From Prorocentrum cordatum (lineage: Eukaryota > Sar > Dinophyceae > Prorocentrales > Prorocentraceae): a stretch of DNA of 64,000 bases. The notes under the pieces are model-generated. The model made no database searches. It saw only the letters and a program-made list of their open reading frames with translations, and had not been told where the DNA came from. Below are positions 1,790-59,119 of this stretch, piece by piece. The position numbers were made by a program, and so were the translations under genes. The stretch is taken from contig CAUYUJ010019625.1 of the NCBI GenBank assembly GCA_963575745.1, forward strand, positions 111,189-175,188. Reading direction: 5' to 3'. The first letter of the stretch is position 1; each line of letters begins with the position of its first letter.

Positions 1790-2278
1790 CACCCCTCCCC
1801 GTCGCTCGGACGTCCACCCCCTGTGTTTTTTTCGGTTTCTTGCGTGGCTTTTTCGCAGGATGACCCAGGATGCTCCTCGATAGCCCCCGCCGGGAAAAAT
1901 CGGGCGTTGGCAGAACTGGGTTTGGTGGAACCTGGTTTAGCGATCTGTACTGGGGGCGCTTTTTTGTGCCGTTTCCGCTAACCGGAACTGCCGTCGCCCG
2001 AAAAGACACCAGCTGTGGCAACCCTGGTTCAGTGAGACAAGACAAGACAAGAGACAAGAGCCCGCGTCGAGGCACCTACGAGGGTGCGGCGGGAGGGCGC
2101 CGGGGCGCCGGAATAGGCTGGCCGCTCAGAAGCCGGGGTCGGGAAATGGCAGCCCGGGTCGGACAGATGGGAGTGGGTGCCGGAGCCGCAGTCGGAGAAG
2201 TGGTTCAGTGATGCTGGCCAATTCCAAGGAAGCAGGCGCCCTACCACTAACCGGGTCCCCTTACCTGGGGTCCTCGTC
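1790..2278. other. Spacer, no supported gene
   Basis: Unassigned sequence. A short (ACAAG)n run lies near 2037-2058. No reading frame has recognisable content. Confidence 0.5.
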
Positions 2279-2460
2279 TCAAGTCGGACCTGTCCCCCTA
2301 CAGGGGGATCTTCTATGAAAAATACAAGATAGCCCAAAAATTACCAAAAATAGTCCAGAAATAGTCTGGGGACAATTTGTTGCATAATGTTTGACCTTTT
2401 GGGGGCAGTTTTGGGGTATTTTTTTTATTTTTCGTCGAAAATCCCCCTGTAAGGGGTCCT
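2279..2460. mobile_element. MITE family A, copy 2 (right end damaged)
   Basis: The left end, TCAAGTCGGACCTGTCCCCC, matches family A. The interior shares its AT-rich stretches (ATAGTCTGGGG, TTTGACCTTTT, TTTTTCGTCGAA) with the longer copy at 26879-27136, so these two form a sub-family. The right terminal repeat stops after ATCCCCCTGTAAGGGG, and no target duplication is visible. It is a truncated relic. Confidence 0.75.
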
Positions 2461-2629
2461 GGATATGCCCGAGAAAAAATGCACACGTCCGAGCGACGCC
2501 GAGCCCCTGCGCACGCGGAGAGCACGCGGCGCTCCCGGGGGCGCCGCGCCGGGCGGGCCCCCTTAAGGGGGCACCCGGCGCAGCCGTGGGCGCCTGGCAC
2601 TGCGAGCCTGGCACAGATCCCTATGCCTA

Positions 2630-3165
2630 AGCCAATCTTAGGGATTCCCATATTAGGGATTCCCTAATCTTGGAGATGCCCTCAGTTTTTCAGGGCGCAT
2701 CCCTACGATTGTCATCGCCTTTTGGCGTGTCAATCTTAAGGATAGGGATTCCCTCAGGGCATCCCTGAGGGATCCCCTAATCTTAGGGCATCGCCTCATC
2801 ACAATGCCAATCTTAGGGGTTCCCTCAGTTTTTCAGGGCGCATCCCTAAGATTGTCATCGCCTTTTGTCGGGGATGGACATCCCTATCCCTCACCACGAT
2901 GCCTCATCGCCTCATCACAATGCCAATCTTAGGGATAGGCTATCCCTATCCCTGAGATTGGCACTGTAATCACAAGCGTTGCCTATCCCTGAGATTGCCT
3001 ATGCTTGCGCCTCATCGCAATCACATATCCCGATCCCTCATCCTAAGCTGGGCATCGCCTCATCACAATGCCAATCTTAGGGGGTTCCTCAGTTTTTCGG
3101 GGCGCCTCCCTAAGATTGTCGTCGCCTGTTGGCGTGTCAATCTTATGGATAGGGATAAGTTCGAG
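2630..3165. repeat. Degenerate inverted and direct repeat of CTTAGGGAT / ATCCCTAAG
   Basis: Built from short blocks in both orientations: CAATCTTAGGG, GGGATTCCCT, CCCTCAGTTTTTCAGGGCGC and ATTGTCATCGCCTTTTG. The longest block recurs near 2679, 2830 and 3089. The mixture of a motif and its reverse complement would allow several alternative hairpins. No coding capacity. Confidence 0.75.
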
Positions 3166-30930: not shown

Positions 30931-33240
30931 ACAAGGAGGTGTTACACAAGCGCCGACGTAGAGACCAACGGCCACTCACAAAACATGCGACTGTCTGAGT
31001 CATGCCCCATCTCCTCACGCTGATCTCAGAGGTGCATTGAAGATTCCGATTGCAGCACTTCGCCACATGGTCAGGGACAGACGAGAGCATCATCAATGGA
31101 AAGCGAGGCAGTGGGCGCAAAATCTGTCAACTCAAATGCACTGAATCTTCGATGTAATGGATCCTCATCCATATCAAGATGGACTGATTACGGGAGAAGC
31201 CCCGTCGGGCGTGTCACAGAACCTTCTACATGAAATTATGTCCCCCACCACTCACGAAAGAGAGTGCACACCAGCGCCGACACAAAGGCCAACGGCCATT
31301 CACAAAACATGCCACTGTCTGAGTCACGCCCCATCTCCTCGCGCTGGTCTCAGAGGTGCATTGAAGATTCCGGTTGCAGCACTTCGCCACAGGGTCAGGG
31401 TCAGAAGAGGGAGCTCGTGGTATCATCAGTGGCCGGCGAGGCAGCGGGCGCAAAATCTGTTAACTGCAATCCACTGAACCTTCGATACGATCGTTGCAGA
31501 TCCATAGCAAGATGAACTCGCGTGAGAAGCCACATCGGGCAGATCACAGAACCTCCCCGAAACAAAGGCCAACGGCCATTCTCGAAACATGCCACTGTCT
31601 GAGTCACGCCCCATCTCCTCGCGCTGGTCTCAGAGGTGCATTGAAGATTCCGGTTGCAGCACTTCGCCACAGGGTCAGGGTCAGAAGAGGGAGCTCGTGG
31701 TATCATCAGTGGCCGGCGAGGCAGCGGGCGCAAAATCTGTTAACTGCAATCCACTGAACCTTCGATACGATCGTTGCAGATCCATAGCAAGATGAACTCG
31801 CGTGAGAAGCCACATCGGGCAGATCACAGAACCTCCCCGAAACAAAGGCCAACGGCCATTCTCGAAACATGCCACTGTCTGAGTCACGCCCCATCTCCTC
31901 GCGCTGGTCTCAGAGGTGCATTGAAGATTCCGGTTGCAGCACTTCGCCACAGGGTCAGGGTCAGAAGAGGGAGCTTGTGGAGTCATCAATGGCCAGCAAG
32001 GCAGCGGGCGCAAAATCTGTCAACCGAAAGGCCCTGAGCCTTCGATACGATCGATGCCGATCAAAAGCCAGATGGACTCACGTGAGAAGCCACATCGGGC
32101 AAGTCACAGAAGCTGCCCGACAGAAAGGCCAACGGCCATCCACAAAACGTGCCACTGTCTGAGTCATGCCCCATCTCCTCGCGCTGGTCTCAGAGGTGCA
32201 ATGAAGACTCCGGTTGCAGCACTTCGCCACAGGGTCAGGGTCAGAAGAGGGAGCTTAGAGTTTCATCAATGGCCAGCGGACCAGCGGGCGCAACATCTGT
32301 CAACTGCAATTCACTGAACCTTCGATACGATCGATGCCGATCCATAGCAAGATGGACTCGCGTGAGAAGCCACATCGGGCAATTCAGAGAACCTCCCCGA
32401 CACAAAGACCAACGGCCATTCACAAAACATGCCACTGTCTGAGTCACGCCCCATCTCCTCGCGCTGGTCTCAGAGGTGCATTGAAGATTCCGGTTGCAGC
32501 ACTTCGCCACAAGGTCAGGGTCAGAAGAGGGAGCTTGTGGTATCATCAATGGCCAGCGAGGCAGCGGGCGCAACATCTGTCAACTGCAATCCACTGAACC
32601 TTCAATACCATCGATGCCGATCCATAGCAAGATGGACTCGCGTGAGAAGCAACATCGGGCAAGTCACAGAACCTCCCCGACACAATGGCCAACGGCCATC
32701 CACAAAACATGCCACTGTTTGAGTCATGCCCCATCTCCTCGCGCTGGTCTCAGAGGTGCATTGAAGATTCCGGTTGCAGCACTTCGCCACAGGGTCAGGG
32801 TCAGAAGAGGGAGCTTGTGGAGTCATCAATGGCCAGCAAGGCAGCGGGCGCAAAATCTGTCAACCAAAAGGCCCTGAGCCTTCGATACGATCGATGCCGA
32901 TCAAAAGCCAGATGGACTCACGTGAGAAGCCACATCGGGCAAGTCACAGAAGCTGCCCGACATAAAGGCCAACGGCCATCCACAAAACGTGCCACTGTCT
33001 GAGTCATGCCCCATCTCCTCGCGCTGGTCTCAGAGGTGCATTGAAGATTCCGGTTGCAGCACTTCGCCACAGGGTCAGGGTCAGAAGAGGGAGCTTGTGG
33101 TATCATCAGTGGCCAGCGAGGCAGCGGGCGCAACATCTGTCAACTGCAATCCACTGAACCTTCAATACCATCGATGCCGATCCATAGCAAGATGGACTCA
33201 CGTGAGAAGCCACATCGGGCATGTCACAGAACCTCCTACA
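30930..33240. repeat. 280-bp satellite, eight copies
   Basis: The anchor ACTTCGCCACA occurs at 31057, 31381, 31661, 31941, 32221, 32501, 32781 and 33061: one spacing of 324 and then six of exactly 280. The conserved core reads CTGGTCTCAGAGGTGCATTG, AAGATTCCGGTTGCAG, ACTTCGCCACAGGGTCAGGG, TCAGAAGAGGGAGCT. Copies anchored at 31941 and 32781 share private variants (TGGAGTCATCAATGGCCAGC and the CAAAAGCCAGATGGACTC stretch), which suggests an 840-bp higher-order unit. Frames on both strands are open across unit boundaries, but I see no gene. Confidence 0.95.
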
Positions 33241-42334: not shown

Positions 42335-42847
42335 GAGGAGGAGGAGGAGTAGAAGGAGGAGGAGGCGGAGGAGGAGGAGGCTGAGGAGGAGGAGGAAGAG
42401 GAGGAGGACGAAGAGGAGGAGGAGGAGGAAGAGGAGGAGGAGGAGGAGGAGGAGGAGGAGGAGGAGGAGAGAGGAGGAGGAGGAGGAGGAGGAGGAGGAG
42501 GAGGAGGAGGAGGAGGAGAGGTGGAGGAGGGAGGAGGGAGGAGGAGGAGCAGGAGGAAGAGGAGAAGGAGGAGACGAAGAGAAGGAGGAGGAGGAGGAGG
42601 AGGAGGCTGAGGAGGAGGAGGGGAAGAGGAGGAGGAGGAGGAGGGGAGGAGGAGGGTGAGGAGGAGTAGGGGGGGAGGCGGAGGAGAGGCGGAGGAGGAG
42701 GACGAGGAGGAGGAGGAGGAGGAGGAAGACGAGGAGGGAGGAGGAGGAGGAGGACGACGACGACGAAAAGGAGGAGGCTGAGGAGGAGGAGGAGGAGGAA
42801 GGGCGGAGGGGAGGAGAGGAGAGGAGAGGAGAGGAGAGGAGAGGAGA

Positions 42848-42878
<31 letters not shown>

Positions 42879-42940
42879 CAGAAGGAGGAGGAGGCGGAGG
42901 AGGAGGAGGAGGAGGAGGAGGAGGAGGAGGAGGAGGATGA
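42335..42940. repeat. (GGA)n microsatellite at the 3' side of the LINE
   Basis: About 600 bp of GGA with AGA, GCT and GAC interruptions. On the retrotransposon strand it reads (TCC)n and directly follows the element's 3' end. The matching tract beyond the 5' end is at 49414-49738, in the same orientation. Confidence 0.95.
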
Positions 42941-43000
42941 GGAACAGAGGAACAGACCGAGCGCACCCAGGTGCGAAGTTCGGGCGATGCCAAACGCATT
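42941..43000 (-). other. LINE 3' untranslated region with a terminal hairpin
   Basis: Only about 60 nt separate the RNase H stop (43001-43003, TAG) from the TCC-rich tail. Within it, 42962-42975 is a perfect 6-bp stem with a 2-nt loop (CGCACC TG GGTGCG on the element strand). Several LINE families need a 3' stem-loop for recognition by their reverse transcriptase; whether this hairpin does that is inference. Confidence 0.6.
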
Positions 43001-44569
43001 CTAGCCCTGACAATGAGCGGCGCATGCAGCGGCAGGCGCAGCGGCAGCTGAAATTTCTTCCACGGCCATGCCGTGGGTAGCTGCGCGCAGGAATTTGGTG
43101 AGGCCATCGCGCCCAGCGTGGGCGCGAGTGAATTCTCCCTTGTCAATCTTGGCGAGGTTCTCTCGCCCTCTCTTGGTGATACCCGCGCAGGGTGCGGCAA
43201 GGTGGCGTGGGTCCTCGGTTGCCGTCTTTCCGCGCCCGCGGCAGAAGTACAGGCGGTACTTCTGCATGGGATGAAGCTTATGGCTGGCGTGCAGCTCGCG
43301 CCCAGCAATGGTGATGGTGCCCGGTACTGGCACTATCTGGTCACTGGCAGACGGCAGGGGCGGCTGGTGGGTGCACGGCGTGGCACAGGCCTGGCGTACT
43401 TTACACTTGTCAGTGGTGAGCCCGCACCGAGAGCAGAGGTACTTGCCCGCTCTGAGCTCAAAGGCGTGCTGGCTCGATTGCATGGCTGACTGCAGCTTGG
43501 TGAGGCGCGGGCCTTTGGCCTGCGAGGGTCGCTCCGCAACCCACGGGTCGACTGCGAGCGTGTCAGCTAGGGCTCGGCGCGCCCTCCTGCGGATGAGGGC
43601 GCGCCGGGCATCGTGCAGGTCTGTGGGAGGGGCCTGTCCTACAAGCGCTGCCTCGTAGGACTGTTGGGCCGCTACCCCTGCCCACGCATCGGCCGTCGCG
43701 TTGCCGATTGTGTGAAAGTATCGCACAGGGTCAGAGGCTAGGCCAGGTGACTCCTCGCAGTGTGAGGGCACCCAGATCGCAGAGAGCTGCCTAGTGCCAC
43801 GTGCGCGAATTGCTTTGGCAATTCGCGCCCGCAAATCCTGATTGGCGCCATCGCAGGGGCGCAAGTGTCGATTCGACCGCCATCCGTCGTATAGCGGGAG
43901 GTGGTCTGTGATGAAACAGAGGTCGCCCTTCCAGCGTTCTAGGGCGAGCGCAAGAGCTAGCAGCTCAGCGCGGGGCACAGTCTGAAAGGGGCCCTCGAGG
44001 CCCGACATGATACCTCCCCAGGGGGCCCACTCCCCGAAGAGGCACTTCATAGCAGCACAGGCGGTCCCCACTCTTCGGCGTCGTGGGTCATCACTGTGCT
44101 GACCTCCGGAGCCGTCCCCGAAGAGAGCGAGGGTGCCGCCGCTGCTGACGCAGTCCTCCCAATCCCGCCCAACCCAGCTCCACCCGCCGCCCCCTCCCAA
44201 TGAAGCAAAGAGCGGGTGCGTGTCAGCGCGCGCAGGCAAGCCGCGGAGCCAGCATGCGGGAGCAGCCTCTGCTCCAGCCAGGGCAGAGGGCATGAGGGCG
44301 TCAGAATCCGTGTAGTCCTCGTGGTCGCGGTTGCAGGGGCACAGCCAGACCCTGTGCATGAGCGTCTCGTCGGCCCCGCCGCCCCTCGGACAAGTTGGAA
44401 TAGCGTTGTACCCCGCCTCGATGAGTCGGCTTCTGGGCCATTGCGCCCCCGCGACCACGCAGAGGTTGAGGGCCGCCTGGTCGTACTGACCCTTCCTCGT
44501 GAACTTCTCCATCTCGTTGGCAACAATGTGGACGTTTGGCCCCCCCGTTGCAAACCTTCTCCATGTGGA
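43001..44569 (-). pseudogene. LINE ORF2 segment: Cys/His segment, RNase H, C-terminal Cys-rich segment
   Basis: A stop-free stretch of about 520 codons, the best preserved part of the element. From its N-terminus: HIVANEMEKF; an ETLMHRVWLCPCN segment with Cys/His spacing (about 44318-44372); RNase H (about 44130-43660) with the four acidic active-site positions in FGDGSGG, VPRAELLAL, ITDHLPLYDG and GNATADAW; then YLCSRCG and CATPC, a second Cys-rich cluster (about 43445-43375). RNase H would remove the RNA strand during cDNA synthesis. It is joined to the RT part through two frame changes near 44590 and 44540-44546, the latter at a run of seven C. The stop is TAG at 43001-43003. Confidence 0.85.
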
Positions 44570-47240
44570 TGATTGGCAGCGCCCCTCCAGAGGCTCCGCT
44601 CGAGGGGCAGGCAGAACTCGTGGACGAACTCCGCAACGTCCACGTCGTAGCGCTCGTCCTCCCAGTCGGCTTGTCCACTGTGAGGTAGCTGCCACTCCTG
44701 GATGTAGGTCTCGCCTGCCCACGGTGGTCGCGACCACTCCGTTGGCGTCGGGCAGGTCCAGCCTGCGTCCAGGAGGATGGCCTGGATGGCGGAGATGGGG
44801 CCCATGACCTTCCTCCACTTTTTGTTGCCGCGCTTGGTCGACTTGTCGTAGATCAGCTTTCACGCCTGCGTGACCCGCATGTGGTGTTCTGGGTACTGCA
44901 TCCAGAAGTTGAGCCACTCGGCGATCGACTGGCGCCTGAGCTCGATGGCGGGGCCCTTCTTCCTCATGACGACGGCCAGGGCTGCGGAGAGGCAGCGGCC
45001 AGGGACCTTCCCCGCCGAGGCCTGGACGGCCTGGCGCCTCTAGTCGAGGATGGCCGCTGGGGCGAGGCCCATGATCTGGCGGCCGTAGGTCCCCTGCGGC
45101 CTGGAGCCTGTGTTCCACAAGCCCTTCGCGATCTTGGCGAGGGAGGCGTGCTTCCTGACCTCGGCGACGATGCGGTGAGTGCGCCTCATCGCAGTCCTGG
45201 CCCTCTTGGTTGCCTTGGCCACAACCCGTCTCTTGGCGCCGCCCACGTCGATGCCGAGGTCGACCGCGCTGTTGGCCACCTTGACGTAGTAGCCCTTCTG
45301 CTTGAGGCCGTCGTGCACTGCGTAGGCGATCGCCTGGCTGGAGGCGACGACGGTGGTCTTGGGGGAGACTCGGAGCCCCGCGCCCACCATGCCTGCGCAC
45401 AGGTCGGCGCCAACCCCGATCAGATCCTTGATGACCTGCTTGGTCTGGCCCTCTGTTCTCGCGACCGTGTCGTCCACGAACGTCCACAGGCCCGCGTATG
45501 TGTGGTTGATGTGGGCCCTCTGCAGGATCGGCCCCAGGTAGACCTTGGCGAGCCTGCCGCCATTGCAGCTGCCCGCGACAATGGACCTCTCGGCATCTAT
45601 GATGTCGCTGACCCAGCCGTGCATTCACAAGTACCTGGGCGCCAGGTAGAGCTGCACCTCCAGCGCCACGACGACCGGGGGGGAGTTCACCCCGATAGCG
45701 GCGTCGAAGAGGGGCGCGTAGCAGACCGAGTCGTAGAACTTCTCTACGTCCATCAGCAAGGTCGCGAAGGCAATGCCAAAGGTCGCCGCCGCCTCGTCAA
45801 GCAGCGCCCTGACCAGCGCTGCCCTTAAGTCGCTGGAGCCTTTGATGGCGGTGTCCCTGAACTCCCCGAGCTCCTTGGACCACTCGTCGGTGACGCTGGA
45901 GCGGACCTTGGCCCACGTCTTGGGGATGGTGGGGGGCATGCCCAAGATTCTCTCTCCACCCGCGGGCTTGGGGGCCATGGCCACAATGGTGGCGCAGAGC
46001 TGCTGCGGCCACAGTCCGTTGGCCTCCACCTGGTTGTAGATGTCGGCGAGCTCCTGGATCCCTTTCTCAGGGGGCCTCTGGATGTCGATGGGGCCGATGT
46101 TGTCGACTCCTCTCGCCTTCTTCGGGTTGGCGGTGCCCGCGATGGCTTGCATGTGCTGCGGCTCGATTGGCGAGAGAGGGTCCTCTTTCGCAAGCCGCAT
46201 GGCCTTCTCGTAGGCGCTGATGATATGCTTGGCGTTGTAGCTGTCGGACGCCCAAATGGAGCGCCAGGTGTCGGCGGAGTGGCTCATAAGCGTGGATGGG
46301 TCGCCCACCGTCTTCTGGGGCTGCTTGCCCTCTAGGCGCGGCGCCTTGGGGTCAGCGACCATGCGGCGCAGCTTGCCTGGTGAATCCTTCCACGCCTGCT
46401 TCGCCCAGTCGAGGTATCGTTTTCGCGCTCTGCCTGCAGCTCTCGCCATGGCTTTGTGGGTCCACTCCATGGTGGCGACACTGATGCGGTGCAGATCAAC
46501 CCCGTCGCAGTACTCGAGGGTAGCGAGCTGGGTCTTCCACTCTTCGATCTCCTGCGGGTCGGTTTTTCATCCGAAGTGCGTCTTGGAGAACTCAGGGTTC
46601 TCTGGGTCGTCCAACTTTTTCATGACTGTCTTGTGGGTGTGCTGGCGGGCTTTGGGGCCCTTGCCGTTGGTGGCCAGCGCGGCGTACCTCACTGCGAGGG
46701 TGCTGAGGTGCTGCCACCATGTGGCCTCGGGGTCCTTGAGGTGCGCTCTGCCAGGCGACGCCTTGATCGTCTGCTTGGTGGTCCTGTACTCTGCCCTGCC
46801 CTGGCACCTGGCCCTGCCCTCGACGGGGACCGCGTGCGTCTCCAGGAAGGCGAACTCCAGGGTCGCGATCCACTGCGCGTACTTCGAGTTGATGTTCTCC
46901 GCGAGGTTCGGCGCATGGTTGCGGAAGATGCGTCCTCTACCCTCCTTGGTGCCGACCTTTGCGCCATCGAACTTCGGGAAGTTGCTGACCTCGTCGGCGG
47001 CTTCGTCCCAGTTCTCCTGGGGGATGACGAAGGGGGTGGGGTCCTCCTTGACCGTCTCGCGGTTGGTGCACAGGGCATCGAACTCGTCGCGCAAGTGCTC
47101 TGGCAGCCTTTCCCTCCTGGTTCGCAACGCCTCCGCTCGAGCCTTGGACCTTTTGCTGCTCGGGTCCGCGACCTTCTTGGGTCTGGCTCGCGCGGGGAGG
47201 GCTTTGGGAACCTTTATGGCTTTGTACTGCCACGGCTCGG
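44570..47240 (-). pseudogene. LINE ORF2 segment: linker and reverse transcriptase
   Basis: One frame runs from the endonuclease end to about 44590, interrupted by TGA at 46567-46569, TGA at 45625-45627, TAG at 45040-45042 and TGA at 44860-44862. Homologous-looking protein continues across each stop. The basic linker (47240-46500) precedes the RT fingers (KARGVDNIGPIDI near 46110), motif A with catalytic Asp (LLMDVEKFYDS, about 45765-45730), motif B-like AGSCNGGRLAKVYL (about 45570-45530) and the active-site motif C, WTFVDDTVA (about 45490-45460). FVDD is a variant of the usual YxDD box. After motif C come the thumb-like region and a Trp-rich segment. The role is target-primed reverse transcription of element RNA. 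Dead as read. Confidence 0.85.
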
Positions 47241-48035
47241 CGGTGCCCACCGCGATCTGAATGCCGCAGTGGGTCTTCCAGGGGACGTCGTAGATGGCCT
47301 CGATCCCGACGTGCGTGGCGATGTCCGCCGGCACGATCGCGTAGTCGCACACGGAGCCCGAGCCCTTGCCGCACGTCGCCTCGCAGCTCGGGTCAGTGAG
47401 GATGGTGCCGTTCCAGCGCGTAACCACGGCTTGTTGCCCCACCAGTGCGGCTCGTAGTTCAGTCGGCCAGGATGATCCACGGGTCCATGAGCATGTCCAC
47501 GAAGGTGGAGATGGAGACCAAGATGTCACTGTTCGCGCCTTGGCCCCGTAGGCCAGGGCGCAGGCACGCCGCCACGACGACTATGTTGCCGCTCGTGGAG
47601 TGGAGGACTGTCGGCGTGAACCCCACGAACGGCTGCCTCTTGTGGCGCTTGACACAGTAGTCCCTGTAGCCCTCGAACGTGGTCGCCGCCGCGTCCCTGC
47701 GCGTGAGGACCCACTCGCCGCCATGGGCCCCCTTGTCCGATTTGTTGGTGGCCACTGCGGGCGTGGCCGACAGCTCCCAGCCGTCCATGGCGAGCTTGCC
47801 AATCTGCTCCGTGAGGCCGTTCGCGTCGACGTGCGTCTCCGCCAGCGCTATGAGGTGGTACTTGTAGCCTGCGTTGCGACAGAAGTTCGCGGCCTGCGGG
47901 CCCCAAGCCGTTATGTTGCCGAACAGGATCTGCGCTGCCTGCTCGGGCTTAGGGGCGGGTGCACCTGCCGCGGGGGACCCACTGGCGCGGTTCCCATGCC
48001 CCTTCAGCCGATGCGGCCGCTTGCGGCTACCCCAG
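47241..48035 (-). pseudogene. LINE ORF2 segment: APE-type endonuclease
   Basis: The N-terminal half (48030-47460) has the substrate/metal motifs FGNITAWG and LAETHVD. It ends at WIILAD followed by TGA, where the frame changes (about 47460). The C-terminal half continues in the next frame with GSVCDYAIVP and the catalytic His in PWKTHCGI. Together these are the N, E, D.N, S.xDY and H signatures of the exonuclease-endonuclease-phosphatase fold used by LINEs to nick target DNA. The D.N motif is split by the frameshift, so this copy cannot make an active enzyme as read. Confidence 0.85.
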
Positions 48036-49203
48036 CGACGGTGGGGCTCCTGCCGCTGCCGCTGGCACCGTGGTGGCGTCCTTGCCCATGCCCTTAGCTG
48101 CGAAGGCCAGCTCCCTGGCCCCGGCGGCGGTGGCGATGAGCTCGGCGGCGGCCTCGCGGTCCTCCACGGAGGGCTCGTCGGCGGCAGGGGCGGCTGCAGC
48201 GGGCCCAGGGGCCCCTCCAGGCTAGCGTGGCTCAGCAGGTGGGGCGGCAGAGCCTCCTGGCGTGCCAGGTTGTGCCTGTCCTCCAGGCGCGGCCGCTGGC
48301 TGCTGTTCCGCCGGTGATGCGGGAGCAGGCTCAGGAGGAGGTTGCTGAGCAACAGGTGCCTCCCCATTCGGCTTCTTTCGCTTCGCAGGGTTGGTGGTGG
48401 ACTCCTTGGCTTGGCGTAGGAGCTCACGTACTTTTTCTTGGCCATTGTTGAGCTCGGCGAGGCGCCGGTCGAGCTCTTGCTTCCACTGTTCCATCTGGGC
48501 GCGGGCGCCCTCGTCGTAGATGGAGAGGTCGTCCCACATAGAGCTGTCGACCTTGAAGGCGTCCTGAGGCCCCACAGGTGGTGCTCCGCGTGCTGCTCCA
48601 GCAAGCTTGGCACTGTGGTCAGCTTGTGCCTTGGCGCATGCGTTCTGTGCCTGGACGAGGTCCACGGCGGCTTGCTCTTGTTTGTCCACGGCGTCGTCGT
48701 ACCACTGCTTGGCGGCCTCGACGTCGTCGACCGACTGCTTGAACTTCTTCTCCCTGTCTGTGAGGACTGACAGCGCCGACTGTGCGGGCAGGCTGATGCT
48801 TGTCAGGCTGCTGGAGGGCGTCCTTGAGGTTGCCGACGAGTTCGGCGTGCTTGGTGTCGCTGAGGAACGTGCTGAGCGTGGCGAGGATGGCGTCCCTAGT
48901 CGGGGCGGCGGCCACTGGCTGCTCCTTCGATGGCGGTGGTTTGCTGACTCCTGCCCAAGCCCCTGTGGGCTGGCGGTTTTCGGCAGGTGATGGAGCCAGC
49001 TGCTTGCCACAGTAGAAGCACTCGGACTTCCCCTTCCATGTCCATCGGTATCGGCACTGCTTGCAGACTGTGCACTGGCTTGCGAACCTTGCTGGCGAGC
49101 CTCGTCCGCCTTCAGGGCGTGCACGTCGCGGCCTGGTGCCGCCATTGGCGGCTGCTCCTCCGTCAGCAGGGGCGGTCCCTCCACCACGCTCTGCGGCGGC
49201 CAT
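48036..49203 (-). pseudogene. LINE ORF1-like segment: zinc ribbon, coiled coil, acidic region
   Basis: The first part (from ATG at 49203 to about 48795) carries CTVCKQC and, twelve residues later, CFYC: a CxxC-CxxC zinc ribbon at about 49075-49005. The frame then moves by one base. The second part has a charged helical stretch (about 48790-48590, TDREKKFKQSVDDVEAAKQW) that looks like a coiled coil, then a Pro/Ala/Gln-rich tail. It is cut by TAG at 48222-48224, beyond which similar sequence (VEDREAAAELIATAAG) continues. An alternative start is the first ATG after the spliced leader at 49385, in a different frame. Probable role is nucleic-acid binding, by analogy only. Confidence 0.7.
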
Positions 49204-49257
49204 CGACCCACTGCTTCCCAGGGAGCTCTCGCGAGCCACGCAAGGGAGGAATATGAA

Positions 49258-49325: not shown

Positions 49326-49391
49326 TACGAAGAGCACTGATAGCTGTGGGAGCCTACCCCAGATCGGCAGCGAAATGAACACCATGTTGGC

Positions 49392-49413
49392 CTTGAGCCA
49401 AAATGGCTACGGA
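49392..49413 (-). other. Complete dinoflagellate spliced-leader sequence at the LINE 5' end
   Basis: The minus strand reads TCCGTAGCC, ATTTTGG, CTCAAG, an exact match to the known 22-nt leader that dinoflagellates add to nuclear mRNAs by trans-splicing (first base T, one of the allowed variants). It is followed by GCCAAC and ATG at 49385, not by the GT splice donor of a spliced-leader RNA gene. It is therefore the leader of a processed mRNA copied back into DNA. Immediately upstream is microsatellite. Confidence 0.95.
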
Positions 49414-49738
49414 AGAGGGGAAGGGGGAGGAGGAGGAGGAGGAGGAGGAGGAGAAGGAGGAGGAGGAGCAGGAGGAGGAGGGAGGAGGAGGAGGAGGAGG
49501 GGAGGGGAGGGGAGGGGAGGGGAGGGGAGGGGAGGGGATGGGGAGGGGAGGGAGGAGAGAGGAGAGGAGAGGAGAGGAGAGGAGAGGAGAGGAGAGGAAG
49601 AGAGGACAGGAGAGGACAGGAGAGGACAGGAGAGGAGAGGAGAGGAGAGGAGGAGGAGGAGGAGGAGGAGGGGGAGGAGGAGGGGGAGGAGGAGGAGGAG
49701 GGGGAAGACGAGGAGGAGGAGAAGGAGGAGGAGGCGAC
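49414..49738. repeat. (GGA)n / (GGGGA)n microsatellite at the 5' side of the LINE
   Basis: GGA triplets to about 49500, (GGGGA)n and (GGAGA)n to about 49645, GGA again to 49738. Same strand orientation as the tract at 42335-42940. Confidence 0.95.
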
Positions 49739-50094
49739 GTGGATTGCCTCTCGGCTACTCGCTGACCAGGCGCTGCGCGAGGTCATTCCGATGCTCGAGA
49801 GACAGCTGGCGCCAGTTCGCGAGGCATCTGGACTTCCACCCCTCGACCAGGGCGCGTGCGAGCTTGGGCTCGGGGAGCCGAATGTCGCTGTGGAGGAAAC
49901 GGGGTGCCCCTGGGGGCGACGAAGCGGAGGAACTCCTGCCAAAGGTCGGGCCGTCCCGCCTCTGGCTTGGCGCACTGCTGCCCCCATCGCACTTGAAGAC
50001 CACGTCCCAGAAGTAATTTCGAGCACCCAGAAAACTATCGAGACAGCGCCTGCGCGACACGATTGCGAAGTGTCGAACGAATATCGCCCCCCAG
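49739..50094. other. Spacer, no supported gene
   Basis: Mixed sequence. A minus-strand frame of 206 codons (49755-50375) includes the family J region but has no motif I know. Confidence 0.45.
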
Positions 50095-55384: not shown

Positions 55385-58300
55385 CAAAAAAAACGACACA
55401 GGCCAGCGGCCACCCACAAAACATGCTGCTGCCTGAAAACTGTCCACCTTTCCGCACTGGTCTCAGAGGTGCAGTCATGATTCCGGTTGCAGCACTTCGC
55501 CACAGGGTCAAAGTCAGAAGAGGGAGCTTGTGGGATCATCAATGGCCAGCACGGCAGCGGACACGAAATCTGGCAAATAAACGCACAGATCGTCTGATAT
55601 GAACGATCTGGTTCAATATATAATCAAACTAATTACGCGCGAAACCCCTCGAGTCTGTCACTCAAATTCTCTCTAAGCGGTCGAAGACACTCACTCACTA
55701 CAGAGACACACACACACAGAGGCTGCTGACACTAGCAAGACAAGTGTTACACGGTCGCCAGGACACAGACCAGCGGCCATTCACAAAACATCTCACTGCC
55801 TGGAACACTGTCGACCTCTCCGCATTGGTCTCAGAGGTGCAGTCATGATTCCGGTTGCAGCACTTCGCCACAGGGTCAAAGTCAGAAGAGGGAGCTAGCG
55901 GTATCAGCAATGGCCAGCACGGCAGCGGACACGAAATCTGACAACTGGAGGCACAAATCCTTTGATGTGAACGATATGACTCAATATCACATCAAACTAA
56001 TTACGTGCGGAACTCCTCGAGCATGTCACTCAACTTCTCTCTAGATGGTCGAAGACACTCACTCACTACAGAGGCACACAGAAAGAGGCTGCTTCTACTC
56101 GCAAGGAAGGTATGACACGATCGCCAGGACACAGACGAGCGGCCGTTCAAAAAACGTCAACTCCCTTGAGAGCTGTTTATCTGTCCGAACTGGTCTCAGA
56201 GCTGCAGTCATGATTCCGGTTGCAGCACTTCGCCACAGGGTCAAGGTCAGAAGAGGGAGATTGTGGTATCATCAACGGCCAGCACGGCAGCAGACACGAA
56301 ATCTGACAAATGAAAGCACATATACTTTGATGTGAACGACATGATTCAATATCAAACCAAACTAATTACGTGCGAAACCCCTCGAGCCTGTCACTCAATT
56401 TATCTCTAGGAGGTCGAAGACACTCACTCACTACAAAGACACAGAAAGAGGCTGCTGACACTCGCAAGGAAGGTATTACACGATCGCCAGGACACAGACC
56501 AGCGGCCATTCAAAAAACGTCAACTCCCTTGAGAGCTGTTTATCTGTCCGAACCGGCCTCAGAGCTGCAGTCATGATTCCGGTTGCAGCACTTCGCCACA
56601 GGGTCAAGGTCAGAAGAGGGAGCTTGTGGTATCATCAACGGCCAGCACGGCAGCAGACTCGAAATCTGACAACTGAAAGCACATATACTTTGATGTGAAC
56701 GATACGATTCAATATCAAACCAAACTAATTACGTGCGAAACCCCTCGAGCCTGTCACTCAATTCATCTCTAGGAGGTCGAAGACACTCACTCACTACAGA
56801 GACACACAGAAAGAGGCTGCTGACACTCGCAAGGAAGGTATTACACGATCGCCAGGACACAGACCAGCGGCCATTCAAAAAACGTCAACTCCCTTGAGAA
56901 CTGTTTATCTGTCCGAACCGGTCTCAGAGCTGCAGTCATGATTCCGGTTGCAGCAATTCGCCACAGGGTCAAGGTCAGAAGAGGGAGCTTGTGGTATCAT
57001 CAACGGCAAGCACGGCAGCGGACACGAGTTCTGGCAACTGAAAGCACATATACTTTGATGTGAACGATATGATTCAATATCAAACCAAACTAATTACGTG
57101 CGAAACCCCTCGAGCCTGTCACTCAAATTCTCTAGGCGGTCGAAGATGCTCACTCACTTCAGAGGCATACGCAAAAAGGCTGCTGAAACTCGAAAGGAAG
57201 GAGCTACACGATCGCCAGGACACAGACCAGCGGCCATTCACCAAACATGCCGCTGCCCGAGAACTGTCGACCTCTCCGCACTGGTCTCAGAGGTGCAGTC
57301 ATGATTCCGGTTGCAGCACTTCGCCACAGGGTCAAAGTCAGAAGAGGGAGCTAGCGGTATCATCAATGGCCAGCACGGCAGCGGACACGAAATCTGACAA
57401 CTGGAGGCACAAATCCTTTGATGTGAACGATATGACTCAATACCACATCAAACTAATTACGTGCGAAACTCCTCGAGCATGTCACTCAACTTCTCTCTAG
57501 ATGGTCGAAGACACTCACTCACTACAGAGGCACACAGAAAGGGGCTGCTTCTACTCGCAAGGAAGGTATTACACGATCGCCAGGACACAGACGAGCGGCC
57601 GTTCAAAAAACGCCAACTCCCTTGAGAGCTGTTTATCTGTCCGAACTGGTCTCAGAGCTGCAGTCATGATTCCGGTTGTAGCACTTCGCCACAGGGTCAA
57701 GGTCAGAAGAGGGAGCTTGTGGTATCATCAACGGCAAGCACGGCAGCAGACACGAGTTCTGGCAACTGAAAGCACATATACTTTGATGTGAACGATATGA
57801 TTCAATATCAAACCAAACTAATTACGTGCGAAACCCCTCGAGCCTGTCACTCAATTTATCTCTAGGAGGTCGAAGACACTCACTCACTACAGAGACACAC
57901 AGAAAGAGGCTGCTGACACTCGCAAGGAAGGTATTACACGATCGCCAGGACACAGACCAGCGGCCATTCAAAAAACGTCAACTCCCTTGAGAGCTGTTTA
58001 TCTGTCCGAACCGGCCTCAGAGGTGCAGTCATGATTCCGGTTGCAGCACTTCGCCACAGGGTCAAGGTCAGAAGAGGGAGCTTGTGGTATCATCAACGGC
58101 AAGCACGGCAGCGGACACGAGTTCTGGCAACTGAAAGCACATATACTTTGATGTGAACGATATGATTCAATATCAAACCAAACTAATTACGTGCGAAAGC
58201 CCCTCGAGCCTGTCACTCAAATTCTCTAGGCGGTCGAAGATGCTCACTCACTTCAGAGGCATACGCAAAAAGGCTGCTGAAACTCGAAAGGAAGGTGCTA

Positions 58301-58875
58301 CACGATCGCCAGGACACAAACCAGCGGCCATTCACCAAACATGCCGCTGCCCGAGAACTGTCGACCTCTCCGCACTGGTCTCAGAGGTGCAATCATGATT
58401 CCGGTTTCAGCACTTCGCCACAGGGTCAAAGTCAGAAGAGGGAGCTAGCGGTATCAGCAATGGCCAGCACGGCAGCGGACACGGAATCTGACAACTGGAG
58501 GCACAAATCCTTTGATGTAAACGACATGATTCAATATCACATCAAACTAATTACGTGCGAAACTCCTCGAGCCTGTCACTCAAATTCTCTGTCGGCGGTC
58601 GACGACGCTAACTCACTTCAGAGGCATACACACAGAAGCTGCTCGCACTCGCAAGATAAGTGTTTCACGGTCGCCAGGACACAGACCAGAGGCCATTCAC
58701 AAAACATGCTACTCCCTGGAGAACCGTCCAACTCTCCGCACTGGTCTCAGAGGTGCAGTCATGATTCCGGTTACAGCACTTCGCAACAGGATCAAGGTCA
58801 GAAGAGGGAGCTTGCGGTATCATCAACGGCCAGCACGGCAACGGACACGAAATTTGGCAGCTGAACGCACTTGTA
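55385..58875. repeat. 365-bp satellite, ten copies
   Basis: The anchor ACTTCGCCACAGG (or a variant) occurs near 55493, 55862, 56227, 56590, 56955, 57318, 57683, 58048, 58412 and 58778, spacing 363-369. The unit includes GACACAGACCAGCGGCCATT, CTGGTCTCAGAGGTGCAGTC, ATGATTCCGGTTGCAGC and TAATTACGTGCGAAACCCCT. Two subtypes occur: GGGTCAAAGTC...AGCTAGCGG and GGGTCAAGGTC...AGCTTGTGG. The pair of units around 55862-56227 recurs almost unchanged at 57318-57683, a 1456-bp (four-unit) higher-order spacing. Both strands have open frames; no gene seen. Confidence 0.95.
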
Positions 58876-59119
58876 CTTTGATGCGAGCGAACCCACTCAA
58901 TAAAACATGGATGGCCACGCGCGCCGACGGTGTGTAAGAAACGCAATGCATATAAAAAAACAAGTAGTGTGGTTGAGTTGTTATTTCCTAGACGCTGCGC
59001 GCATGGGGAATCCGCGGACCTCACTGGGGCCGAAGTCACCATTTGCCCGCAGAGCGCCCCAAGAGCGGGCCAAAGCATCCGAAGACCGCGAGCTAAAGCG
59101 TGTCGGGTCACACACTGGC
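58876..59119. other. Spacer
   Basis: Mixed sequence, nothing recognised. Confidence 0.5.

Follow-up and report, generated by a model that had tools for sequence, protein, structure and literature searches.

In every copy we have read, a LINE family of the dinoflagellate Prorocentrum cordatum begins exactly at the spliced leader of its host; nearly all copies have pyrimidine tracts on both sides, and some carry exact 22+15 stacks of leaders. The copy from which this family was recognized lies in a stretch of 64,000 nt (the window). It is probably a decayed member of a (TCC)n-targeting family that receives its 5' end from host trans-splicing in each cycle and in which nothing upstream of the host leader belongs to the element. 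A preliminary description of this one element had proposed trans-spliced, leader-headed and possibly stacked copies, a picture that is supported, and the loss of the splice acceptor from each new copy, which is not.

The window LINE and its leader

The window LINE is ~6.47 kb long and lies on the minus strand, with the leader at its exact 5' end. This leader, TCCGTAGCCATTTTGGCTCAAG (49413-49392, minus strand), has no mismatch to the spliced leader and is the only match in the window with up to three mismatches allowed; 100 shuffles of the window gave none. The complete dinoflagellate spliced leader has been written as DCCGTAGCCATTTTGGCTCAAG (PMC7245778), and the window leader is the complete 22-nt form with D = T, present singly and unstacked. 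Reading along the minus strand, a (TCC)n-type pyrimidine tract (49414..49740), which we regard as a target-site remnant and propose as the polypyrimidine tract of a trans-splice acceptor, is followed by CCCCTCT, the leader, GCCAAC and an ATG (49383..49385). This ATG, six bases 3' of the leader, is in a different frame from the zinc-finger ORF1 piece, and copy L028 has CTG at its position; it therefore need not start ORF1. Two AG dinucleotides of the leader are of interest below: one at leader nt 6-7 (TCCGTAG/CC; 49407..49408, minus strand), the putative acceptor for stacked leaders, and one at leader nt 21-22 (CAAG/GCC; 49392..49393, minus strand), proposed from the excess of single leaders as the acceptor that restores a single leader.

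Downstream on the same strand, the ORF1 region (48222..49239) is broken over two frames, with a zinc-finger-like piece followed by one resembling a coiled coil, as judged by eye in both cases. ORF2 comprises an apurinic-endonuclease-like part (47200..47953) with a frame shift near 47460, to which the homologues P0001 and P0002 align; a reverse transcriptase (45040..46470), to which P0002 aligns, with an FVDDT motif and one in-frame stop; and a C-terminal part (43004..44570) with RNase H-like and zinc-knuckle-like motifs. The endonuclease-like, RNase H-like and zinc-knuckle-like regions are what we take them to be from their motifs. The element ends in a short 3' segment (42945..43000) made of a CGCACCTGGGTGCG inverted repeat and a tail of TGTTCCTC units without poly(A), and then comes a second (TCC)n-type pyrimidine tract of about 600 nt (42335..42943), the other half of the target. 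Across 30 copies there are 1-6 TGTTCC units within 120 nt of the 3' end.

Six proteins (P0001-P0006) match the window LINE, four of them named Prorocentrum cordatum. P0002 scores to Pfam RVT_1 at 7e-07 and 29.6 bits, exactly at the cut-off of 29.6, and the window's own broken ORF pieces gave only sub-cut-off Pfam matches, with no RVT_1, endonuclease or RNase H among them. The LINE-type reverse transcriptase recognized through P0002, together with the fixed ends and the like lengths of the copies, points to a non-LTR retrotransposon. With its several frame shifts and stops, the window copy looks dead.

Genomic copies, target tracts and stacked leaders

The P. cordatum genome (4.128 Gb, 21,875 contigs) was searched with the first 314 bases of the element, leader included, and 40 of 321 candidates were scored; these gave 42 rows for 40 copies, two copies being split over two rows, and 41 of the 42 rows begin at query base 1-12. 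A search with the 3' end scored 40 of 157 candidates. We read the best 30 scored candidates from each end, the window copy being among the 5' set. The leader stands at the same boundary in all 30 of the latter, with 0-2 substitutions across the 21 fixed bases; L030 has G as its first leader base, reflecting either the copying of a leader with D = G or a later base change. L022 (on contig C18861) and L025 have identical flanks and are probably one insertion counted twice, so that the 30 copies represent 29 distinct insertions. A listed 3' end lies 6.1-6.5 kb away from 25 of the 40 listed 5' ends, a count that includes two duplicate pairs twice, takes its 3' ends from the 40 scored of 157 candidates, and was obtained by script for 34 of the 40, the other six having no listed 3' match on their contig.

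Since the leader forms part of the 314-base query, a second set was picked blind to it, by an exact 33-base motif just downstream of the leader that occurs 19 times genome-wide. The leader is present in all 19, of which 17 are among the 30 already read and the others are L165, with one substitution in its leader, and L166. Leaderless copies at the LINE 5' boundary were sought, and there are none among the 19 exact-motif copies and the 30 copies read. The leader at this boundary is confirmed as real and recurrent, far more regular than one window could show. The preliminary description had it right in placing the leader exactly at the LINE start, six bases ahead of an ATG, and the many copies beginning at the leader to which it looked are now in hand. 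A chance match, a one-off retrocopy and an assembly chimera are rejected as having next to no probability, given the shuffles without a match and a junction that recurs in 30/30 copies (29 distinct) with different flanks.

Beyond the tract, no upstream sequence adjoining the leader is common to the copies read once low-complexity sequence is masked. Among flanks of up to 1,400 bases from the 30 copies, masked in the same way, similarity reaches the leader only between L022 and L025; other flank matches are repeats away from the leader junction. Transcription would therefore have to originate in the host flank or inside the element.

Target use was measured on 31 distinct insertions, the 30 read less L025 plus L165 and L166. 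The 40 nt before the leader are at least 85% pyrimidine, mostly (TCC)n, in 28 of the 31, against 4.0% of plus-strand and 2.4% of minus-strand positions in the window outside the element (p about 5e-39, with a rough background drawn from this one window). The three under the mark are L041 and L165, which have short tracts, and L033, which adjoins (CT)n(TA)n. On the 3' side, 29 of 30 ends have at least 90% pyrimidine across the next 20 bases, L070 (60%, no tract) being the exception; L065 and L066 have one 3' flank in common. Both flanks are thus in like simple repeat and in fixed orientation: the family uses (TCC)n-type tracts as targets, oriented so that its sense strand runs with the pyrimidine strand, and the leader's first bases, TCC, merge with the tract, within which any target-site duplication would be ambiguous.

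Four of the 30 copies read (L014, L017, L033 and L041) carry stacked leaders of 22+15 nt, as the preliminary description had anticipated, the leader being followed by CCATTTTGGCTCAAG or a near form. The second leader of each stack lacks its first 7 nt, the loss ending at an AG. For dinoflagellate retrogenes, the splicing of a new leader is described as removing the first seven nt of the old one (PMC12014239). We infer that the 22+15 stacks are the trace of renewed trans-splicing within an older leader, so that some leader-bearing copies would have been transcribed, trans-spliced inside the old leader, reverse transcribed and reinserted; the stacks thus favour trans-splicing of a longer precursor. 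The earlier proposal of an element RNA that acquired its leader by trans-splicing and was reverse transcribed up to the leader's first base is supported.

On a tree of 29 copies, built from about 300 bases with the leader columns left out and with 18 of 26 inner branches weak, the stacked label requires four changes, and at least two of these are forced by well-supported branches. When the leader columns are kept, the stacked copies form two pairs; with these columns removed they scatter. Two copies with a shared GGTTC variant fall on opposite sides of a well-supported branch, and a CATGTT variant is common to L023 and L041.

The remaining 26 of the 30 copies have a single leader, suggesting that the commoner route is splicing after the terminal CAAG, by which one leader would be restored. 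Single leaders would equally result if transcripts of a leaderless master were newly spliced. A few masters elsewhere in the genome, having a promoter of their own and an ordinary acceptor (CAAG/GCC), might indeed have produced leader-bearing insertions that are dead on arrival, and a rare or diverged master could escape a reading of 30 + 2 copies. We judge such an origin improbable, because none of the 19 exact-motif copies lacks the leader or has other upstream sequence in its place, and because the stacks indicate that some leader-bearing copies have been re-transcribed, re-spliced and recopied, more than once on the tree.

The cycle that we favour instead, in which host trans-splicing renews the 5' end, would run as follows: (i) host transcription reads through the tract into the element; (ii) trans-splicing adds a new leader, the acceptor being the tract with an AG that lies inside the old leader or ends it; (iii) the leader-headed mRNA is translated and then reverse transcribed from its TGTTCCTC-type 3' end, primed in the (GGA)n/(TCC)n tract; and (iv) the cDNA reaches the 5' TCC of the leader and is joined at that point, where leader and tract sequence agree; tract and leader then form an acceptor again. 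Splicing at the terminal AG would keep one leader, and splicing at the internal AG would add 15 nt and yield a stack. We infer the read-through transcription, the acceptor use of the tract, the priming and the junction steps from the arrangement of the genomic copies. Host read-through with repeated trans-splicing in each cycle, which the preliminary description had offered as one of two outcomes, appears to fit best. Its statement that a new copy has lost the splice acceptor finds no support: the leader has AGs ending at nt 7 and nt 22, and a pyrimidine tract precedes it in 28 of 31 insertions. A long pyrimidine tract followed by an AG, the composition of a 3' splice site, is present whether the tract is read together with TCCGTAG or with the complete leader up to its final CAAG, so that insertion in this orientation would rebuild a possible acceptor at each new site.

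Leaders beyond this family

The exact leader 21-mer occurs 14,218 times genome-wide (7,201 + 7,017 on the two strands) and its reversed control not once. Fourteen straight pyrimidines precede 3,860 of the 14,218 (27%, vs 1.3-1.8% of window positions). The first 100 listed sites were taken as a sample, 28 with long flanks and the other 72 with flanks of 100 bases. The 40 bases upstream are at least 85% pyrimidine in 42, at least 85% purine, (GGA)n-like, in 19, and otherwise composed, other simple repeats included, in 39; 58 of the sampled leaders are therefore outside pyrimidine tracts. Seventeen are stacked (up to three mismatches, within 12 bases), and L149 is a triple stack of 22+15+15. When the 99 bases 3' of the leader are compared, 54 of the 100 sites group by similarity into 12 clusters of 2-19 members.

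The clusters differ in their surroundings. The cluster of 19 has 16 members in pyrimidine tracts. One cluster of 5 has none behind pyrimidine or purine tracts and another of 5 is mixed. We note some particular groups: (i) L097, L099, L143 and L160 are headed by the leader behind purine tracts, in the opposite orientation to the window LINE, and a fifth member of their cluster, L162, is behind a pyrimidine tract. (ii) L074, L094, L103, L124 and L159 form a leader-headed cluster set in varied sequence that includes (TA)n, (CA)n and CAGACA repeats. (iii) L119, L120 and L121 (contig C39, 19.9-28.2 kb) are three leaders 3-5 kb apart with both flanks alike, and probably represent SL RNA genes or a tandem unit that contains such genes. 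Leader-headed families seem to differ in their targets, and leaders flanked by purines would gain no pyrimidine tract, so that the acceptor idea does not apply to leader-headed insertions in general.

In a cluster of 3, the leader L080 lies behind (TCC)n with a LINE-type reverse transcriptase, L164 (RVT_1, 4.8e-13), 2.6-4.6 kb downstream in the same orientation; distance and orientation suggest that the two belong to one element. The best E-value of L164 to the proteins of the window LINE, 0.25, is not significant. At least two distant LINE families thus appear to be leader-headed, and there are probably more. A zinc-finger regular expression was found downstream of the 28 long-flank leaders in the sense direction in 8 and antisense in 2, and upstream in 1, a result that is suggestive only as a marker of LINE ORF1 downstream of leaders. 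The 1.5 kb after these 28 leaders have no match to ORF1 or ORF2 of the window LINE or to P0001-P0006, which speaks against a close relative by ORF1 among the 28.

These leaders bear on a further explanation, in which the leader is a fixed part of the element that acts as promoter or initiator (a TTT(G)/TTTT-box) and is copied as DNA without trans-splicing. A promoter motif within the leader was proposed by Song et al. in 2018 (PMC6050394; repeated in PMC12014239). Refreshing of leader variants, moreover, is not evident in our family: leader nt 8-22 have two shared alleles (4 cells), and 22-nt windows of the element body have 0-24 shared cells. Even so, we think this explanation quite unlikely, a little more so than that of the masters: the 22+15 stacks and the 22+15+15 of L149 lose exactly 7 nt up to an AG, which transcription from the leader alone would not bring about, and unrelated repeat clusters bear the same leader.

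Trans-splicing as the source of the leader might extend to a large class of unrelated LINE families that have lost their own 5' promoter region and live on host read-through and trans-splicing, a pyrimidine-microsatellite target rebuilding the trans-splice acceptor and so taking the place of a promoter; this generalization is tentative, and we put it slightly below an even chance. If it is true, many of the DinoSL relicts in dinoflagellate genomes that are counted as retrogenes would mark the starts of such elements or have been made by their machinery, and there would be a structural reason why dinoflagellate retrogenes survive so well.

Relation to known elements

A LINE normally needs an internal promoter, since reverse transcription cannot copy sequence upstream of the transcript. 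In the present family the 5' end would come from host trans-splicing and the acceptor from the target tract, which would solve the promoter problem in another way, and stacked leaders would allow cycles to be counted. The family is also relevant to the questions of which machinery makes the many leader-tagged retrocopies of dinoflagellates and why so many of these remain expressed. Non-LTR elements that target microsatellites or telomeres include the R1-clade Waldo and Kendo, SART/TRAS and Dong. These are like our family in inserting into simple repeats; we know of none with a host spliced leader at its start.

Slamovits and Keeling reportedly described DinoSL relict retrogenes in 2008. Leader-tagged dinoflagellate retrogenes have since been treated in print (PMC6050394, PMC12014239, PMC8045281). 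As in our family, a trans-spliced mRNA is reverse transcribed and inserted and the old leader lacks 7 nt (PMC12014239), and the window family has the features of such DinoSL retrocopies, a leader at the exact 5' end and stacked relicts minus the first 7 nt. The cargo of the relict retrogenes, however, is host genes, whereas in the present family it is a LINE that follows the leader in all copies read, and the microsatellite setting is fixed.

Leaders on transposable elements are also in print for flatworms and Hydra. In flatworms, 597 discarded partial-leader loci lay mostly in LTR and LINE elements and were explained by trans-spliced element RNA (PMC12582326); in Schistosoma mansoni, six SL exons were merged with transposable elements, chimeric assembly being considered as well (PMC5832876). 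The passages concerned are brief remarks and, unlike the present case, give no exact boundary, stacks, target or cycle. In Hydra, about 30% of Iso-Seq reads from transposable elements carry leaders (PMC12220107); this is an observation on RNA, with no leader-headed genomic copies described in the text consulted. SymbioLINE-Dnmt and other dinoflagellate LINEs have an ORF1 and an RT-bearing second ORF, but the available text mentions no leader at their 5' ends, using 'trans-splic' once and of the host (PMC5890265). The main text of the P. cordatum genome paper, as available, has no word beginning with 'retrotranspos' (PMC10666404). Among the titles and abstract openings surveyed, which took in few subscription papers, none described a LINE family in which all copies begin with a leader, or an acceptor rebuilt by the target tract.

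Outside the genome, no relative was found in viral contigs (searched with the RT piece and RT alignment A2) or in genome contigs (A2), and a protein search with the ORF1 pieces gave none among 8,000 candidates scored, a search that low-complexity words may have crowded. The leader pattern hit one viral contig, L001, and the doubled-leader pattern none; in genome contigs the leader hit two, L002 and L003. L001 (IMGVR_UViG_3300045993_001077, 1936-3000) is an AT-rich viral-catalogue contig with two exact leaders 147 bases apart and a glycosyltransferase family 41 ORF, one leader standing shortly before a 254-aa ORF whose composition looks different; the contig may be chimeric, or a viral genome may have taken up a copy of a dinoflagellate mRNA. 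L002 (1-52), on a contig binned as Dehalococcoidia, starts with (TCA)n and then directly the full leader, apparently a misbinned dinoflagellate leader-headed insertion into a microsatellite. L003 (4300-4360), also on a Dehalococcoidia-binned contig and probably misbinned too, has the leader followed by GTACGCAACC and AATTTTTTGG, features that make it look like an SL RNA gene. Finally, the window itself contains long minisatellites at 31277-33236 and 55395-58890, with units of 280 bp and 365 bp; the consensus units of both contain GATTCCGGTTGCAGCACTTCGCCACAGGGTC.
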